This document shows positions 15,257-20,429 of a stretch of DNA of 42,011 bases, in pieces. The DNA is from an uncultured Hyphomicrobiaceae bacterium (GTDB taxonomy: Bacteria > Pseudomonadota > Alphaproteobacteria > Rhizobiales > CAMYJA01): NCBI GenBank assembly GCA_947258705.1, contig CAMYJA010000013.1, forward strand, positions 89,112 to 131,122. Reading direction: 5' to 3'. A model generated the notes under the pieces. The model did not search any database. It was not told the origin of the DNA and worked only from the letters and a program-made list of their open reading frames with translations. The position numbers were made by a program, and so were the translations under genes. How positions within the stretch are numbered: position 1 is the first letter of the stretch; every line of letters begins with the position of its first letter.

Positions 15257-15688
15257 TCAGTCGCGGCCGGATTCGATATCGAGATAGGTTTTTATCACGA
15301 AAGCGGTGGCCGGCGTCATGCGCGCGAGATAGCTGACGATATTTTCGCGCTCGACCGAAACAAGCGTGCCTTCGGTGATTGTGAGTTTTTCTTCAGGGAC
15401 GCCCCCAAGCACGAAGTAATGACCCAGCACGCTGGTTCCATCGGGATAACGGGTTTGATATTCGACAAGAGGTTCGAATTTTTTTGCAGAAGGAGCATAG
15501 CCCGTCTCCTCACTGATCTCACGCGCAACGCACTCAAGAAATGTCTCGTCTCCCTCGCGATGGCCGCCAAAGAGACCGATCATGGCGGCGAACAGAAGGC
15601 CCGGCTTGTCGTCACGCAATTGCAGAAGAAAATTTCCGTCCGAGCCGATCAGGATCGCGCATGCGATCTCGCGGGTGTTTTGCGTCAT
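15257..15688 (-). CDS. Nudix hydrolase
   Basis: A 143-residue cytoplasmic Nudix-fold enzyme that should cleave a nucleoside diphosphate linked to another group. A complete Nudix box spans residues 42-64 (Gly42, Glu48, then REISEETGY), fitting GX5EX7REUXEEXGU with all metal-binding Glu present. The substrate is not predictable. Its ATG overlaps the stop of the upstream GNAT gene by 4 nt (ATGA, 15685-15688), indicating translational coupling. Confidence 0.88.
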   Translation of the reverse strand: MTQNTREIACAILIGSDGNFLLQLRDDKPGLLFAAMIGLFGGHREGDETFLECVAREISEETGYAPSAKKFEPLVEYQTRYPDGTSVLGHYFVLGGVPEEKLTITEGTLVSVERENIVSYLARMTPATAFVIKTYLDIESGRD

Positions 15689-16206
15689 TTGGCGGGCCGA
15701 TCGTTTGGTGCGCTTGCGGTGATGGGGCCGTTGCAGTTTTCGATGCGCTCTTCGTGCAAGGGCAGTATCAGCAGTCGGGTTGGATCGACCGGCCCCGGGA
15801 ACGTAAACTGGCCATTTCGAACCGGTTGAAAACCTGCCTTGCCGTAATAGGGAACATCTCCGACCAGCACGAGCGCGTCGAGGCCTTTTCTTTGGGACGT
15901 TTCCCTCGCAGCCTCGATCAGCCGGAGCCCCAGATTGTGCCCGGCATGGTCGGGATTTACAGTGAGCGGGCCGAGCAGCGCGCCAACGCAGTCCTGCCCA
16001 AGATTAATGTGGGTGAAGCGGATGGCCGCCGCCAATTCACTGTTCGACCAGGCGGTCATGCAGAGCGCCGTATGGCTCTCCTGCCCTTCGCGCAGCCTGT
16101 ACGCCGTGCGGGCGAAGCGGCCCGGCCCATAGACCCGAGCTTCGAGCTCCGCCACGTCATTGCGGTCGGAACTCCGCATGGCACGTATTTGATAGTGGGA
16201 TGACAT
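15685..16206 (-). CDS. GNAT-family N-acetyltransferase (YhbS-like)
   Basis: A 173-residue GNAT protein. The N-terminal IRAMRSSDRNDVAELE and the central strand LLGPLTVNPDHAGHNLGLRLIEAA form the acetyl-CoA pyrophosphate loop region (Q/RxxGxG/A type, here HAGHNLG). YYGKAGFQPV near residue 130 is the usual C-terminal motif of YhbS-like proteins. The substrate is unknown. It is the first gene of a two-gene reverse-strand unit with the Nudix gene that it overlaps by 4 nt. Confidence 0.82.
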   Translation of the reverse strand: MSSHYQIRAMRSSDRNDVAELEARVYGPGRFARTAYRLREGQESHTALCMTAWSNSELAAAIRFTHINLGQDCVGALLGPLTVNPDHAGHNLGLRLIEAARETSQRKGLDALVLVGDVPYYGKAGFQPVRNGQFTFPGPVDPTRLLILPLHEERIENCNGPITASAPNDRPAK

Positions 16207-16291: not shown

Positions 16292-16744
16292 TTACCAGTG
16301 AGGGTTGACCGGATGATTATGGAGGATTTCGCCAAGCCGCCGTTTTATCGCCGGGCGGGCGCCAGCGGGCAAATCATCGGGGGTAAAAAATTTTTGCTCA
16401 ATAATTTCGGCATTTGGCGCCGGCATTTCCCGGCGTTGCCAATCGCGGATGACGAACAGCGCCACATGATCGCCGGGAAATGCCTCGAAATTGGCAAACA
16501 AGCCGTGAAACAGGGCTTCTCCGCCGATATCGATGCCTGTTTCCTCACGAATTTCGCGGGCAACGCCTTCAAAGACAGTTTCCCCTTTTTCAACGCCGCC
16601 GCCCGGAAAATGCCATCCGGTCCTGTAACCATGACGAACAAGGAGGACGGAGTTATCTTCGCCGAATATAACGGCCTGCGCCCCCAATGTCTGACCGCGG
16701 GTCAGACGCCAATAGGGCTGCAATATTTTTCCGATTATTCTCAC
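16292..16744 (-). CDS. Nudix hydrolase (second)
   Basis: A 150-residue Nudix enzyme with a full box at residues 49-71 (Gly49, Glu55, REIREETGI). The N-terminal ILQPYWRLTRGQTLGAQAV is typical of alphaproteobacterial relatives. The start is GTG at 16744; the ATG two bases upstream is out of frame and stops at once. It lies 85 bp upstream of the GNAT-Nudix pair on the same strand and may share a transcript. It is not a close copy of the other Nudix gene. Confidence 0.85.
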   Translation of the reverse strand: MRIIGKILQPYWRLTRGQTLGAQAVIFGEDNSVLLVRHGYRTGWHFPGGGVEKGETVFEGVAREIREETGIDIGGEALFHGLFANFEAFPGDHVALFVIRDWQRREMPAPNAEIIEQKFFTPDDLPAGARPAIKRRLGEILHNHPVNPHW

Positions 16745-16830: not shown

Positions 16831-16850
16831 GCGGGTGTGTTTTCACCCGC
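16831..16850 (+). repeat. Perfect inverted repeat in the phosphoesterase leader
   Basis: GCGGGTG 16831-16837 and CACCCGC 16844-16850 form a 7-bp stem with a 6-nt loop, ending 17 nt before the ATG at 16868. There is no T run. It could be a 5' UTR hairpin affecting translation or an operator between divergent genes. Confidence 0.45.
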
Positions 16851-16867
16851 ATGGTTTGGTAAGTCTC

Positions 16868-17824
16868 ATGAAACATGTGTTTCGCATAGCCCATTTATCC
16901 GATGTGCATCTGGGTCCGCTGAAAGGGCTCAATTGGCGTTCGCTCACGAACAAGCGCATTTTAGGCTATATCAACTGGCATCGAGGCCGGAAAAACGTGC
17001 ATTTGCGCGATAAAATCGATTTATTGATGCAGGACATCGAGTTGCATGAACCCGATCATGTTGCGGTGACGGGGGACCTGGTCAATCTCGGTCTGCCGGA
17101 GGAGTTTATCGCGGCCATGGAGTGGCTCGAAGCGATCGGTCCACCGGACTATGTCAGCGTCGTTCCCGGCAATCATGACGCCTATGTCAAATTGCGAAAC
17201 GATCCCGGCTTCAAGCGCTGGATGCCTTACATGACAAGCAATGAGGGTGGCCGCGCTTTTGAGGACAGCGAGGAGGCATTCCCATATGTCAAACGGTTTG
17301 GCGATGTCGCCCTCATTGGTTTTTCGAGTGCGGTTCCGACGCCGCCTTTCATCGCATCCGGCAGGTTGGGGCCGGAACAGATTGCTCCGGCTGGGGGTAT
17401 CTTCGAGAAACTGGGACGGGAGGGATTGTGCCGCATCGTTCTCATGCATCATCCGCCCATGACCAGCCGCTCGAACTGGTACCGGGGATTGTCGGATGCA
17501 AAAGCCTTTGGAAAAATCGTGAAATCGCATGGCGCCGAGCTCATATTGCACGGACACTGGCATAAGCAGACCATGAACTCCATGGATGTTGCGAATGGAC
17601 ATGTGCCGATTATAGGCGTGCCTTCGGCATCGTCGGGGCAGGTCGGACACAAACCTCTTGCCAGATATAATCTGTTCGATTTTTATCGACAGGGCGATCA
17701 GTGGACGGCGCATATGACGGGCCGAGGATTGAGTAGTCTGGAAGGACCGGTACAGACTATTGAAACGCACGAAATAGAGCTGGCGTTTCACAAGGAGCGC
17801 GAATCTGAAATGATCGATGGTTAG
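16868..17824 (+). CDS. Calcineurin-like metallophosphoesterase
   Basis: A 318-residue two-metal phosphoesterase of the Icc/CpdA group. The motifs appear in order: AHLSDVHLGP (Asp12, His14), VTGDLVNLG (Asp70), VVPGNHDAY (Asn102, His103), LMHHPP and ILHGHWHKQ. All metal ligands are present. No signal peptide is seen, so it is probably cytoplasmic. The natural substrate (cyclic nucleotide, phosphodiester or nucleotide sugar) is not clear. The internal ATG at 16868 is used because the motif I strand begins 5 residues later; a GTG at 16835 would lie inside the leader hairpin. It is divergent from the Nudix gene. Confidence 0.85.
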   Translation: MKHVFRIAHLSDVHLGPLKGLNWRSLTNKRILGYINWHRGRKNVHLRDKIDLLMQDIELHEPDHVAVTGDLVNLGLPEEFIAAMEWLEAIGPPDYVSVVPGNHDAYVKLRNDPGFKRWMPYMTSNEGGRAFEDSEEAFPYVKRFGDVALIGFSSAVPTPPFIASGRLGPEQIAPAGGIFEKLGREGLCRIVLMHHPPMTSRSNWYRGLSDAKAFGKIVKSHGAELILHGHWHKQTMNSMDVANGHVPIIGVPSASSGQVGHKPLARYNLFDFYRQGDQWTAHMTGRGLSSLEGPVQTIETHEIELAFHKERESEMIDG

Positions 17825-17885
17825 GTTCAGATGCTAATGAATCCAAATCATCAGTTACAGGATGGATTATAGGGGACGGTTGAAA

Positions 17886-18719
17886 ATGAGCGATATTTCT
17901 TCATCGGTTGATATCGGGGATCAGGCGGACCGGGGATTTAGAGGTTGGTTGAGGGGGGTGTTGTCGAGCACCGGATTCGAGAAATGCATCATTGCTCTGA
18001 TCGTAATCAATGCGATAACGCTGGGGATCGAGACGGACGAAGGAATGAAAGCTTCGCTTTCTCCGTTCATAGTGTATCTGGATCAGATTATTCTTGCGGT
18101 TTTTGTCGTAGAGATTCTATTACGCATCTTTGCATTCGGCGGTCAGTTCTGGCGCGATCCATGGAGCCTGTTCGACTTTACCGTCGTATCATTCGCGCTC
18201 ATACCGGCTACCGGAAATCTATCCGTTCTCAGGGCGTTTCGCATTTTGCGCGCAATGCGTCTCGTCTCGAGCGTGCCATCCATGCGCCGGGTGGTGAGCG
18301 GATTGCTCAACGCCCTTCCCGGCATGGGATCGATCAGTCTGCTGCTCGTTCTCATATTATACGTGTCTTCGGTAATGGCGACCAAACTATTCGGTCCAAC
18401 CGTGCCGGAATATTTCAGCTCGCTCGGCCATTCGGCATTTTCTCTGTTTAAGGTCATGACGCTTGAAGGCTGGCCCGATATCGCAGATGCCGTCATCAAG
18501 TTTCACCCATGGGCATGGACATTTTTCGTCCTCTATATTCTGGTCACGGCTTTTGCGGTTCTCAATCTTTTTATCGGCATCATCGTCGATGCCATGCAAC
18601 CGCAGAACCAGGCCATTCATGATGAGATTGACGTCGCCGAACGGGAACTCGATGAGGTTCTTCATGAATTGCGCGCCCTCAGGACAGAGGTCATGGCCAT
18701 GCGCGCCGAAGGGCGGTAG
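17886..18719 (+). CDS. Voltage-gated cation channel, one-domain BacNaV-like
   Basis: A 277-residue six-helix ion transport protein. S1 is about 32-50, S2 about 62-82, S3 about 95-108. S4 carries four regularly spaced arginines, Arg116, 119, 122 and 125 (LRAFRILRAMR). S5 follows at about 148-168, then the pore with selectivity filter TLEGWPD (192-198), S6 at about 210-235 (VLNLFIGIIVDAM), and a C-terminal coiled coil (about 245-275) as in tetrameric NaChBac channels. Classic bacterial sodium channels read TLESW; here Ser is Gly and Asp ends the filter. ATG 17886 has AGGGGA 9 nt upstream; an earlier ATG at 17862 is less likely. Confidence 0.88.
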   Translation: MSDISSSVDIGDQADRGFRGWLRGVLSSTGFEKCIIALIVINAITLGIETDEGMKASLSPFIVYLDQIILAVFVVEILLRIFAFGGQFWRDPWSLFDFTVVSFALIPATGNLSVLRAFRILRAMRLVSSVPSMRRVVSGLLNALPGMGSISLLLVLILYVSSVMATKLFGPTVPEYFSSLGHSAFSLFKVMTLEGWPDIADAVIKFHPWAWTFFVLYILVTAFAVLNLFIGIIVDAMQPQNQAIHDEIDVAERELDEVLHELRALRTEVMAMRAEGR

Positions 18720-18834
18720 CTTTTCCACCATCGCCCCGGCTTGACCACATGAGGGCTTTAGACCAGACTGACCGCCGCCTATCTTCAGGGTGAAACGCCG
18801 GGCAGAATTTTATTTTATTGTTGGAGTGTAATTG

Positions 18835-19371
18835 ATGTTTTTTTCGAATTCCGGTGTTCTATTGAAATCGCTCCTTGGCTCGGCCAGGGTATTGTCCCTG
18901 GCCATCATTCTGGTCTCCACCGGTGTTTTGATTATGGGCATGTCGAACAGCCGGGCGGTTGATGTGTCTCACCCTTTAAGGTTGTTCAAGGTTGAAACCG
19001 CCTATGACGATGTGAAGTTTGACGTTGAAAATTCGATCGTGGATGCGGGCTACAAAATTATATATCGCGGCGATATCGGCAAGATGCTGGAGCGAACCGC
19101 CGGCGAGGTGGGATCGAAGAAAAAGGTCTATGAGCAGGCTGGATTTTTTCTGTTCTGTTCCGCCCCACATTCCTATGCGACGATGGCTGCGGACCCCCGC
19201 AACATCGCTTTTTGTCCCTATAATTTGATTTTCTATTCCCTGCCCGGAGAAAAAGACACCACTTATGTCGGTTATCGCCGCCCCGCGCCCGTTGGATCCG
19301 AAGAATCGAAGGCTGCGTTGATGAAACTCGACGAATTGCTCGAGGGTCTGGTCAAGGCCGCATTGAACTAG
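18835..19371 (+). CDS. DUF302-domain protein with N-terminal membrane anchor
   Basis: A 178-residue protein. Residues about 15-37 are a hydrophobic helix (LSLAIILVSTGVLIMGM), either a signal anchor or an uncleaved signal, followed by a DUF302-like alpha/beta domain. KFDVENSIVDAGYKIIYRGDIGKMLERT and the strand FLFCSAPHSYATMAADPRNIAFCPYNLIFY are its typical core. The ATG at 18835 has GGAG 8 nt upstream; a TTG lies just before it. It is followed after 11 nt by the patatin gene, whose ribosome site overlaps this stop region, so the two are probably one unit. DUF302 has no settled function. Confidence 0.75.
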   Translation: MFFSNSGVLLKSLLGSARVLSLAIILVSTGVLIMGMSNSRAVDVSHPLRLFKVETAYDDVKFDVENSIVDAGYKIIYRGDIGKMLERTAGEVGSKKKVYEQAGFFLFCSAPHSYATMAADPRNIAFCPYNLIFYSLPGEKDTTYVGYRRPAPVGSEESKAALMKLDELLEGLVKAALN

Positions 19372-19382
19372 GAAGTTCCCGA

Positions 19383-20429
19383 ATGAGCCTGTTTGGATGG
19401 GGCGGGAAGAAGCTTAACCTCGCGCTTCAGGGCGGGGGTGCGCATGGTGCGTTCACATGGGGTGTTCTGGACCGATTGCTGGAAGAGCCGTCGATCAATA
19501 TCACGTCGATTAGCGGAACCAGCGCGGGCGCGGTCAACGGTGCGGCGCTGGCGTCGGGCTATGCGGAGGGTGGCGCCCCGGGCGCACGGGAGAAGCTCAG
19601 CGAGATCTGGGAGGCAATCGGACGATCCTCTCAACCCGATTTTCAACGTTACAATCCATTTTTGTTCGGGCTGGATACGATGGACCGAGCGGCGGGGGCA
19701 TCGGTCAAACAGTTCATGAAGATGTTTTCACCCGAGCAGCTCAATCCCCTCAATATCGATCCGCTGCGGGCGCTGCTGGAGGCGCATATCGATTTTGCAC
19801 GTCTCAGGCGGAGTTCTGAGGTCAGGCTGTTTATTGCCGCGACCGAGGCCCAAACGGGGCGGTCCCGCATATTTCAACATCATGAGCTGAGTTCGGACGT
19901 GGTGCTCGCATCGGCCTGTCTGCCGACCATCCACAGGGCGGTCAAGATCAAGGGCCGCTACTATTGGGATGGAGGTTTTTCGGCAAACCCCGACCTCGGT
20001 TCGCTCATTCTGAACTCGAATACGTCTGATACGTTGCTCGTTCTACTCAACCCGATGCGGATCGACGACGTGCCAAAATCCGCAGGCAAGATCGCGGAGC
20101 AAATGACCAATCTGACATTCAATCAACCGCTTCGACATGAAATCGAATGCTTTTTGGCGATAAGGGACATGAAAACGGGATTTTTTGCCAAGGACGCGTC
20201 GCGTCAGGAGCGATACAGACGGCACAGGTTTCATCATATTGACGGTGCGAAACACACGGCCCATCTGGCACCCGACAGCAAGTCCCGTCCCGACAAAACA
20301 ATGCTGCAAGACCTTTTTTCGGCCGGCCGCAAGGAAGCAGGGTCCTGGCTGGCGGTTCATGGCGATGATATTGGCCGACGGTCGAGCGTCTCGCTAAGCG
20401 CATTGCTGGAAGGGGAACAGCAGGATTAG
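19383..20429 (+). CDS. Patatin-like phospholipase
   Basis: A 348-residue lipid acyl hydrolase. It shows the oxyanion loop QGGGAHG (17-22), nucleophile motif GTSAG with Ser47, and the dyad Asp196 in YYWDGGFSANP. No signal peptide is present. The C-terminal 100 residues (IRDMKTGFFAKDASRQERYR...) match long bacterial patatin proteins of the kind seen next to lipid or polyhydroxyalkanoate metabolism, but nothing here fixes the substrate. AGGAA lies 8 nt before the ATG, formed at the end of the DUF302 gene. Confidence 0.87.
   Translation: MSLFGWGGKKLNLALQGGGAHGAFTWGVLDRLLEEPSINITSISGTSAGAVNGAALASGYAEGGAPGAREKLSEIWEAIGRSSQPDFQRYNPFLFGLDTMDRAAGASVKQFMKMFSPEQLNPLNIDPLRALLEAHIDFARLRRSSEVRLFIAATEAQTGRSRIFQHHELSSDVVLASACLPTIHRAVKIKGRYYWDGGFSANPDLGSLILNSNTSDTLLVLLNPMRIDDVPKSAGKIAEQMTNLTFNQPLRHEIECFLAIRDMKTGFFAKDASRQERYRRHRFHHIDGAKHTAHLAPDSKSRPDKTMLQDLFSAGRKEAGSWLAVHGDDIGRRSSVSLSALLEGEQQD

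Follow-up and report, generated by a model that had tools for sequence, protein, structure and literature searches.

The window, i.e. the whole 42,011-nucleotide stretch of DNA that was analysed, from an uncultured Hyphomicrobiaceae bacterium, encodes a channel that combines a canonical (NavMs/NavAb-like) BacNav body with an outer pore of the calcium type. On balance, its sequence makes it likely that the protein is a voltage-gated, calcium-permeable and probably calcium-preferring homotetramer built on a sodium-channel body. Its sequence, predicted fold, S4, filter, lineage and synteny, and the residues that change along with the filter, are observations; from these we infer how the subunits assemble, how the channel is gated, which ion it prefers and what it does in the cell. 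CavMr has been termed the sole identified prokaryotic calcium channel (PMC12919392), and features of its filter are now seen on the best-studied BacNav body. What makes the channel interesting above all is its set of relatives: natural channels of the sodium type and of the calcium type that share one body, some of them intermediates found at a single locus.

The channel gene and its lineage

The channel gene is an intact open reading frame with a product of 277 amino acids, possibly 8 residues longer if the in-frame ATG at 17862 is used. Its features are as follows.

17886..18719, plus strand: channel gene P0001, predicted six-helix voltage-gated cation channel (Pfam, AlphaFold2)
18231..18260, plus strand: S4 gating arginines 116, 119, 122 and 125 (RAFRILRAMR; alignment)
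18423..18458, plus strand: P1 pore helix, residues 180-191 (AlphaFold2 model, alignment)
18459..18479, plus strand: selectivity filter TLEGWPD, residues 192-198 (sequence)
18480..18503, plus strand: P2 pore helix after the filter, residues 199-206 (alignment)
18627..18701, plus strand: C-terminal heptad (coiled-coil) stretch, residues 248-272 (model and spacing)

The earlier note had described a six-helix channel with four S4 arginines, a TLEGWPD filter in place of TLESW and a C-terminal coiled coil, and this description was borne out throughout. Pfam assigns Ion_trans with an E-value of 4.2e-45, R116, R119, R122 and R125 are invariant across a 96-row alignment that includes the window channel, and the AlphaFold2 model made from 96 rows (mean pLDDT 92.4) has helices that fit S1-S6, with P1 at 180-191, P2 at 196-206 and a single helix at 210-276. 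Within the latter, residues 248, 251, 255, 258, 262, 265, 269 and 272 (I A L V L L V M) follow a 3-4 heptad spacing, and the C-terminal helices would assemble the tetramer. The intact S4, together with family membership, suggests that the channel is gated by voltage. The window genome contains a single match to the channel at E < 1e-15; the second-best PF00520 match in that genome, L002, has a potassium-type filter, TTVGYGD.

In order to place the channel in the family, we gathered 241 channel ORFs (234 distinct) from named and other genomes and aligned 226 rows, window included, leaving out L243, a duplicate of the window channel and all pieces shorter than 200 residues. A quick tree was built from 137 of 173 representatives, 36 Ser4/Met7 rows being omitted, and a careful tree from 91 of these 137 rows, from which long, ambiguous and near-duplicate rows had been removed by hand and in which the filter and P2 columns were left out. 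AnclNavs (CavMr/NavPp) were represented in the trees by TxEDWTD stand-ins, chosen by filter and proteobacterial occurrence, the filter of NavPp being TLEDWTD (PMC8002053) and AnclNavs being described from Proteobacteria (PMC7041947).

The 91-row tree is divided by a 100/99 split into 80 NavMs-like rows, among them the window channel, and 11 rows with TLEDWTD, TFEDWTD or TFEGWxD filters; the outgroup split in a separate tree agrees in putting the channel on the NavMs side. NavMs (5hvx), whose gene is present as locus L188 (which agrees with the 5hvx segment at 221 of 221 residues), is also the top single-domain relative in the PDB with 232 bits and 113 identical residues in 218 aligned columns (52%). 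Structural matches to the model include CavAb/NavAb (VIA Z about 20-21) and NavMs (Z 19.4); no Cav3 chain was among the structural matches listed (at most the best 50), which is uninformative on fold. Judged from the stand-ins, a strong but indirect comparison, the window channel would sit apart from the AnclNav branch. It has the single-domain 6TM Ion_trans architecture and the arginine S4 of a canonical BacNav and lacks the canonical TLESWxxG filter: its own filter is TLEGWPD, and the stretch before P2 is one residue shorter. By descent we read it as a variant of the canonical lineage and an untypical member of it.

The earlier note had likened the channel to CavMr and proposed a phylogeny of BacNav filters. 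The likeness holds for the filter (Gly4, an uncharged residue 6 and Asp7) and probably fails for descent, as the tree groups the channel with NavMs and away from the TxEDWTD stand-ins. That the channel is a true CavMr/AnclNav relative, as its filter would have it, is very improbable. The filter departs from that of CavMr at position 6 alone and the P2 length equals that of the TxEDWTD group, but the 100/99 split, with CavMr represented by stand-ins, argues for NavMs, and the channel is 35-58% identical to the remaining members of alignment A1 (95 rows), compared to 30-36% for the 15 TxEDWTD rows in the searches by which these were retrieved. Because the tree places the channel with NavMs and because the cysteine-bearing P2-S6 loop is missing, CavMr orthology was rejected as the main reading. 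Among sodium-type relatives, identity to the window channel reaches 60% (L008). The name CavMr is absent from the best 60 of 129 PDB matches, where most single-domain names are generic, and no Meiothermus is among the 117 loci listed for the motif MTLEGWxD.

Several other channel types were seen in the course of these searches. Filters reading TLSSWE, which we take to be the filter of NavRh (PDB 4dxw), occur in L033, L239, L240 and L242; three of these were included in the quick tree, all on the TxEDWTD side, and an AnclNav-like query matched 4dxw with 214 bits. L234 and L236 (DDY filters, e.g. VYDDYG) and L235 and L237 (GDDW, e.g. TGDDWA) are alphaproteobacterial and have long branches. Furthermore, genes resembling the channel, most of them annotated 'ion transporter', occur on plasmids or secondary replicons; 39 records match, all with less than 60% identity, and 17 of them belong to Leisingera.

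Gly4/Asp7 filters and the outer pore

According to PMC7041947, the canonical BacNav family does not show Gly4 combined with a residue 7 that is polar or acidic, and among the open-licence papers listed in our searches we found no report of Gly4/Asp7 motifs in canonical BacNavs. A scan of the named genomes for MTLEGWxD gave at least 117 loci; 92 of the 117 listed contain an ORF that matches the window channel at E 1e-5, and TLEGWPD is the filter in 33 of the 88 aligned rows from this motif-chosen set. Searches with the whole protein gave 137 channels, window excluded: 28 from the same order, 64 from the class (69 of 73 matches fetched) and 45 from the phylum (22 new loci and 20 hand-picked regions of 86 listed). 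In these sets, Gly4 occurs in 5, 15 and 8 channels (order, class and phylum; 28/137), never with Met7, and Gly4 together with Asp7 in 3, 5 and 4 (12/137). Ser4 is found in 20, 45 and 23 channels, with Met7 alongside in 77 of these 88. Contrary to the published statement, Gly4/Asp7 filters recur on the canonical BacNav body.

The filter is accompanied by other changes in the outer pore. The P2 of the window channel is one residue shorter than that of NavMs and other TLESWSM channels; in pairwise comparison, the filter and the residues that follow it up to HPW align without a gap to TLEGWVDIMYYVMDAH of Cav3.2 domain I, and NavMs requires one gap. Among the 226 rows, all 79 Ser4/Met7 filters are followed by a P2 of standard length, as are 31 of the 99 Gly4/Asp7 filters; the other 68, window included, have a P2 that is one residue shorter. 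Most Gly4/Asp7 rows of this alignment come from loci picked by that motif, and 6 of the 68 short-P2 rows fall on the TxEDWTD side. Gln189 is likewise kept by 79 of 79 aligned Ser4/Met7 channels. In a comparison of 69 Ser4/Met7 with 59 Gly4/Asp7 representatives from the NavMs side, Trp176, Gln189, Arg201 and Pro202 were each present in 69 of 69 of the former, and in the latter the turret Trp176 was kept in 11/59, Gln189 in 37/59, Arg201 in 34/59 and Pro202 in 21/59. The window channel has none of the four (Tyr176, Lys189, Asp201, Ala202).

In the 91-row tree, Trp176 goes with Met7 in 33 of 33 rows and with Gly4 in 7 of 46. Over 7 independent tree pairs, Trp176 tracks Met7 in about 5.4 and never the reverse (sign test p 0.03-0.125). 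For Gln189, Arg201 and Pro202, which track the filter in 0.8, 1.1 and 1.5 of 7 pairs and so offer too few contrasts, a tree-corrected coupling was unsupported. The filter seems to belong to a wider outer-pore package, for which proof from the tree is limited.

Filter changes among relatives and at the locus

Among canonical BacNavs, Gly4/Asp7 filters interleave with TLESWSM. Counting starred branches of the 91-row tree alone, there are at least 6 changes for Gly4/Asp7 with short P2, part of which fall on the TxEDWTD side, and at least 8 for Gly4/Asp7 with long P2. One origin for all 19 NavMs-side Gly4/Asp7 rows of a 53-row set was rejected (p_AU 1.06e-05); one origin for the NavMs-side short-P2 rows of this set was borderline, with a p_AU of 0.0507, and not rejected at 0.05. 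The direction of change may be either way: since the outgroup itself has a short P2, TLESWSM could just as well have arisen repeatedly from an older filter of calcium-like type as the other way round. The ancestral BacNav filter has been predicted as TLE[D/S]WTD (PMC7041947).

The clearest single case is in Pseudovibrio, where two adjoining BacNav genes with the filters TLEGWSD and TLESWSM (L118, 5160-7347, minus strand) are sisters at 100/99, and the same pair of neighbours is found at L036 and L319; from the sequences we read this as a gene duplication after which one copy switched its filter. In four genomes (G018, G537, G642 and G679), a channel with short P2 and Asp7 occurs together with a separate one of the TLESWSM type, and two channel types in one genome hint at different jobs.

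Paired genes were also seen elsewhere. L195, L199, L202 and L245 have adjoining channel genes with TTEGWPT (or TTEGWPS) beside TMEGWPD (or TSEGWPD), whose products might combine in a heteromeric channel, and one Hyphomicrobiales MAG and one Xanthobacteraceae MAG (L070 and L093) carry two neighbouring BacNav genes of the TLEGWVD type.

The genes around the window channel are the following.

15685..16206, minus strand: GNAT acetyltransferase gene, a further neighbour in part of the related loci (family match; synteny)
16292..16744, minus strand: Nudix hydrolase gene, conserved divergent neighbour (NUDIX, E 8.6e-20; synteny)
16835..17824, plus strand: metallophosphoesterase gene, conserved upstream neighbour (Metallophos, E 4.9e-16; synteny in 14 genomes including that of the window)
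18832..19371, plus strand: gene for a 179-aa protein that has relatives close to the channel in 4 further genomes
19383..20429, plus strand: patatin-like phospholipase gene (family match; also downstream of the channel in L264 and L270)

A calcineurin-like phosphoesterase gene does lie directly upstream of the channel, as the earlier note had it. Its statement that membrane-lipid genes follow applies to the second gene downstream, for the patatin-like phospholipase, and not to the next one: at an E-value threshold of 0.001, the 179-aa protein matches neither a Pfam nor an NCBIfam family. Relatives of this protein near a channel were found at L132/L285 (one genome), L288, L291 and L295. Against a model of anti-phage phosphoesterases, the window phosphoesterase scores 48 bits with a cut-off of 420.

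We scored a channel as linked if it lies on the same strand within 4.5 kb of a relative of the window phosphoesterase, with one channel per genome; linked and unlinked loci were hand-picked, mostly from the top-scoring matches, and are no random draw. Linked channels were found in 14 genomes of the window's order, window counted, with the Nudix gene beyond the phosphoesterase in 13 and the GNAT gene in 8 of the 14. Their filters are TLEGWPD (2, the window and L285), TLENWPD (1), TMEGWAD (6, one genus), TLEGWSD (1), TLDGWSA (1), TLESWSE (1) and TLESWSM (2, one of them L286), i.e. the standard filter at 2 of 14 linked loci. Among the 54 channel rows not scored as linked, TLESWSM is present in 40, in one of these with an ambiguous letter; at least 3 of the other 14 (L009, L293 and L296) are located at contig ends.

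Eleven rows, including the window, L285, L264 and the TMEGWAD genus, form a starred clade (98/91) in which all have a short P2 and Asp7. A single clade of all phosphoesterase-linked channels was weakly rejected (p 0.042), and such a clade with L009 added, whose contig stops before the position of the phosphoesterase, was not rejected (p 0.123). Due to this weak clade support, orthology of the distant linked channels L269, L270, L284, L286 and L287 rests mainly on synteny. In a sister genus with the same architecture, dN/dS is 0.05 and 0.04 in two pairs that share L267 and 0.12 in a third, at high dS (0.95, 2.7 and 1.8); two further pairs gave no usable dS. With these low ratios, the channel genes look to be under purifying selection.

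A broader reading, which we hold tentatively and at somewhat less than even weight, is that canonical BacNavs switched between Na+ and Ca2+ many times via one package (Gly4, Asp7, often a short P2, and loss of Trp/Gln/Arg-Pro), that the window channel is a native calcium channel outside the CavMr group and that its locus retains intermediate steps in relatives. Since its relatives appear to have switched their filter several times, the window channel is a good natural test of how ion selectivity changes. The sodium-type and calcium-type relatives in one genome or side by side are natural, expressible pairs that address which residues beyond the filter motif decide between Na+ and Ca2+.

Ion selectivity and comparison with known channels

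Among the open-licence papers listed in our searches, we found no currents of the window channel or of any Gly4/Asp7 canonical BacNav and, CavMr excepted, no filter clade like TLEGWPD with measured selectivity. Published measurements on related filters bear on the selectivity of the channel. For CavMr (TLEGWVD), a P_Ca/P_Na above 200 is reported to require Gly4 and an uncharged residue 6, Asp7 being dispensable there (PMC7041947). In NavAb, Gly4 alone (S178G, TLEGWSM) is described as Li+/Na+ selective with P_Ca/P_Na < 0.01, position 7 (Met181) sorts monovalent from divalent ions, and exchange of Met7 by Ala gives a non-selective channel with about 10-fold Ca2+ selectivity (PMC12919392). Because Gly4 alone is not calcium-selective in NavAb, the calcium inference is less certain than the analogy to CavMr suggests. 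The earlier note had drawn it from a short motif; as several outer-pore residues change with the filter, it is stronger than such a motif would make it.

These measurements also bear on the possibility that the channel is still sodium- or sodium/lithium-selective, the NavMs-like body setting the filter geometry and Gly4/Asp7 tuning conductance or lithium preference. The S178G mutant speaks for it, as do the 52% identity to NavMs, on which Ca2+ current was reported as unmeasurable (PMC4972137), and NavPp, described as Na+-selective despite three acidic filter residues (PMC7041947, PMC8002053). The NavAb mutant, however, retained Met7 and the long P2, and Gly4 is paired with Met7 in 0 of the 226 aligned channels (many of them chosen for Asp7) and in 0 of the 28 Gly4 channels from the whole-protein searches; moreover, loss of Met7 is what made NavAb non-selective with a preference for Ca2+. 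We consider sodium selectivity unlikely. That Gly4 was never seen with Met7 in nature suggests why Gly4 alone failed to convert NavAb.

Quite unlikely in our view is a pore that passes cations non-selectively, or one for monovalent ions that external divalents block. NaChBac filter mutants and the natural NsvBa (TLDSWGSG) are reported as non-selective and not calcium-selective (PMC4225499, PMC4972137), and Ca2+ is reported to inhibit NavPp (PMC7041947), but the filters of the NaChBac mutants and NsvBa lack the combination of Gly4 and Glu3, and NavPp with position 4 changed to Gly gains divalent selectivity (PMC7041947). Against the calcium reading, it is of note that Asp7 alone in NavMs (LESWSD) is reported to give no functional current (PMC4972137) and that 2 of 4 expressed AnclNavs gave none (PMC7041947); the NavMs result implies that a NavMs-like body may not carry TLEGWPD as CavMr does.

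The calcium-preferring channel, which remains our preferred reading, might work as follows. Four subunits would be bound into a homotetramer by their C-terminal helices, and depolarisation would shift the four-arginine S4 so that the pore opens. In the filter, Glu3 would retain the high-field site, Gly4 would widen access by opening the entrance, and Asp7 would contribute four charges at the pore mouth. The shortened P2, without the sodium-type Trp/Gln/Arg-Pro, may allow a calcium-type filter shape on the NavMs-like body. Such a pore would admit Ca2+, favouring it or at least not excluding it relative to Na+, and Ca2+ entering upon depolarisation might then be removed by exchangers such as those encoded by the two CaCA genes of the window genome. 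These genes say little on a calcium role, since CaCA exchanger genes are common in control genomes (11 of 14).

Among known channels, NavMs (5hvx) resembles the window channel in having six helices, four arginines in S4 and a helical tail at the C-terminus, and lies on the same side of the tree. It differs in its filter (TLESWSM versus TLEGWPD), in a P2 that is one residue longer, and in the Trp176, Gln189, Arg201 and Pro202 that are constant in Ser4/Met7 channels and that the window channel lacks. CavMr, the native calcium channel of Meiothermus ruber, shares Gly4, an uncharged position 6 and Asp7 (TLEGWVD versus TLEGWPD; PMC7041947), but belongs to another branch of the family, as judged from the TxEDWTD stand-ins, and its P2-S6 loop is described as long and closed by a disulfide (PMC10120453), whereas the sole Cys of the window channel is residue 33. 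Domain I of Cav3.2 (PDB 9ayg) matches filter and P2 without a gap, TLEGWVDIMYYVMDAH against TLEGWPDIADAVIKFH; it is one of four domains in a 24-helix animal protein and overall a weak match (51 bits for S1-S5, 25 bits for the pore). CavAb (TLDDWSD) and LivAb (TLEGWSM), finally, are NavAb mutants that carry artificial calcium and lithium filters on a canonical body (PMC12919392, PMC4972137, PMC6259924). Unlike the window channel, CavAb has Asp3, Asp4 and Asp7, LivAb has Gly4 but Met7, and both retain the P2 of NavAb.
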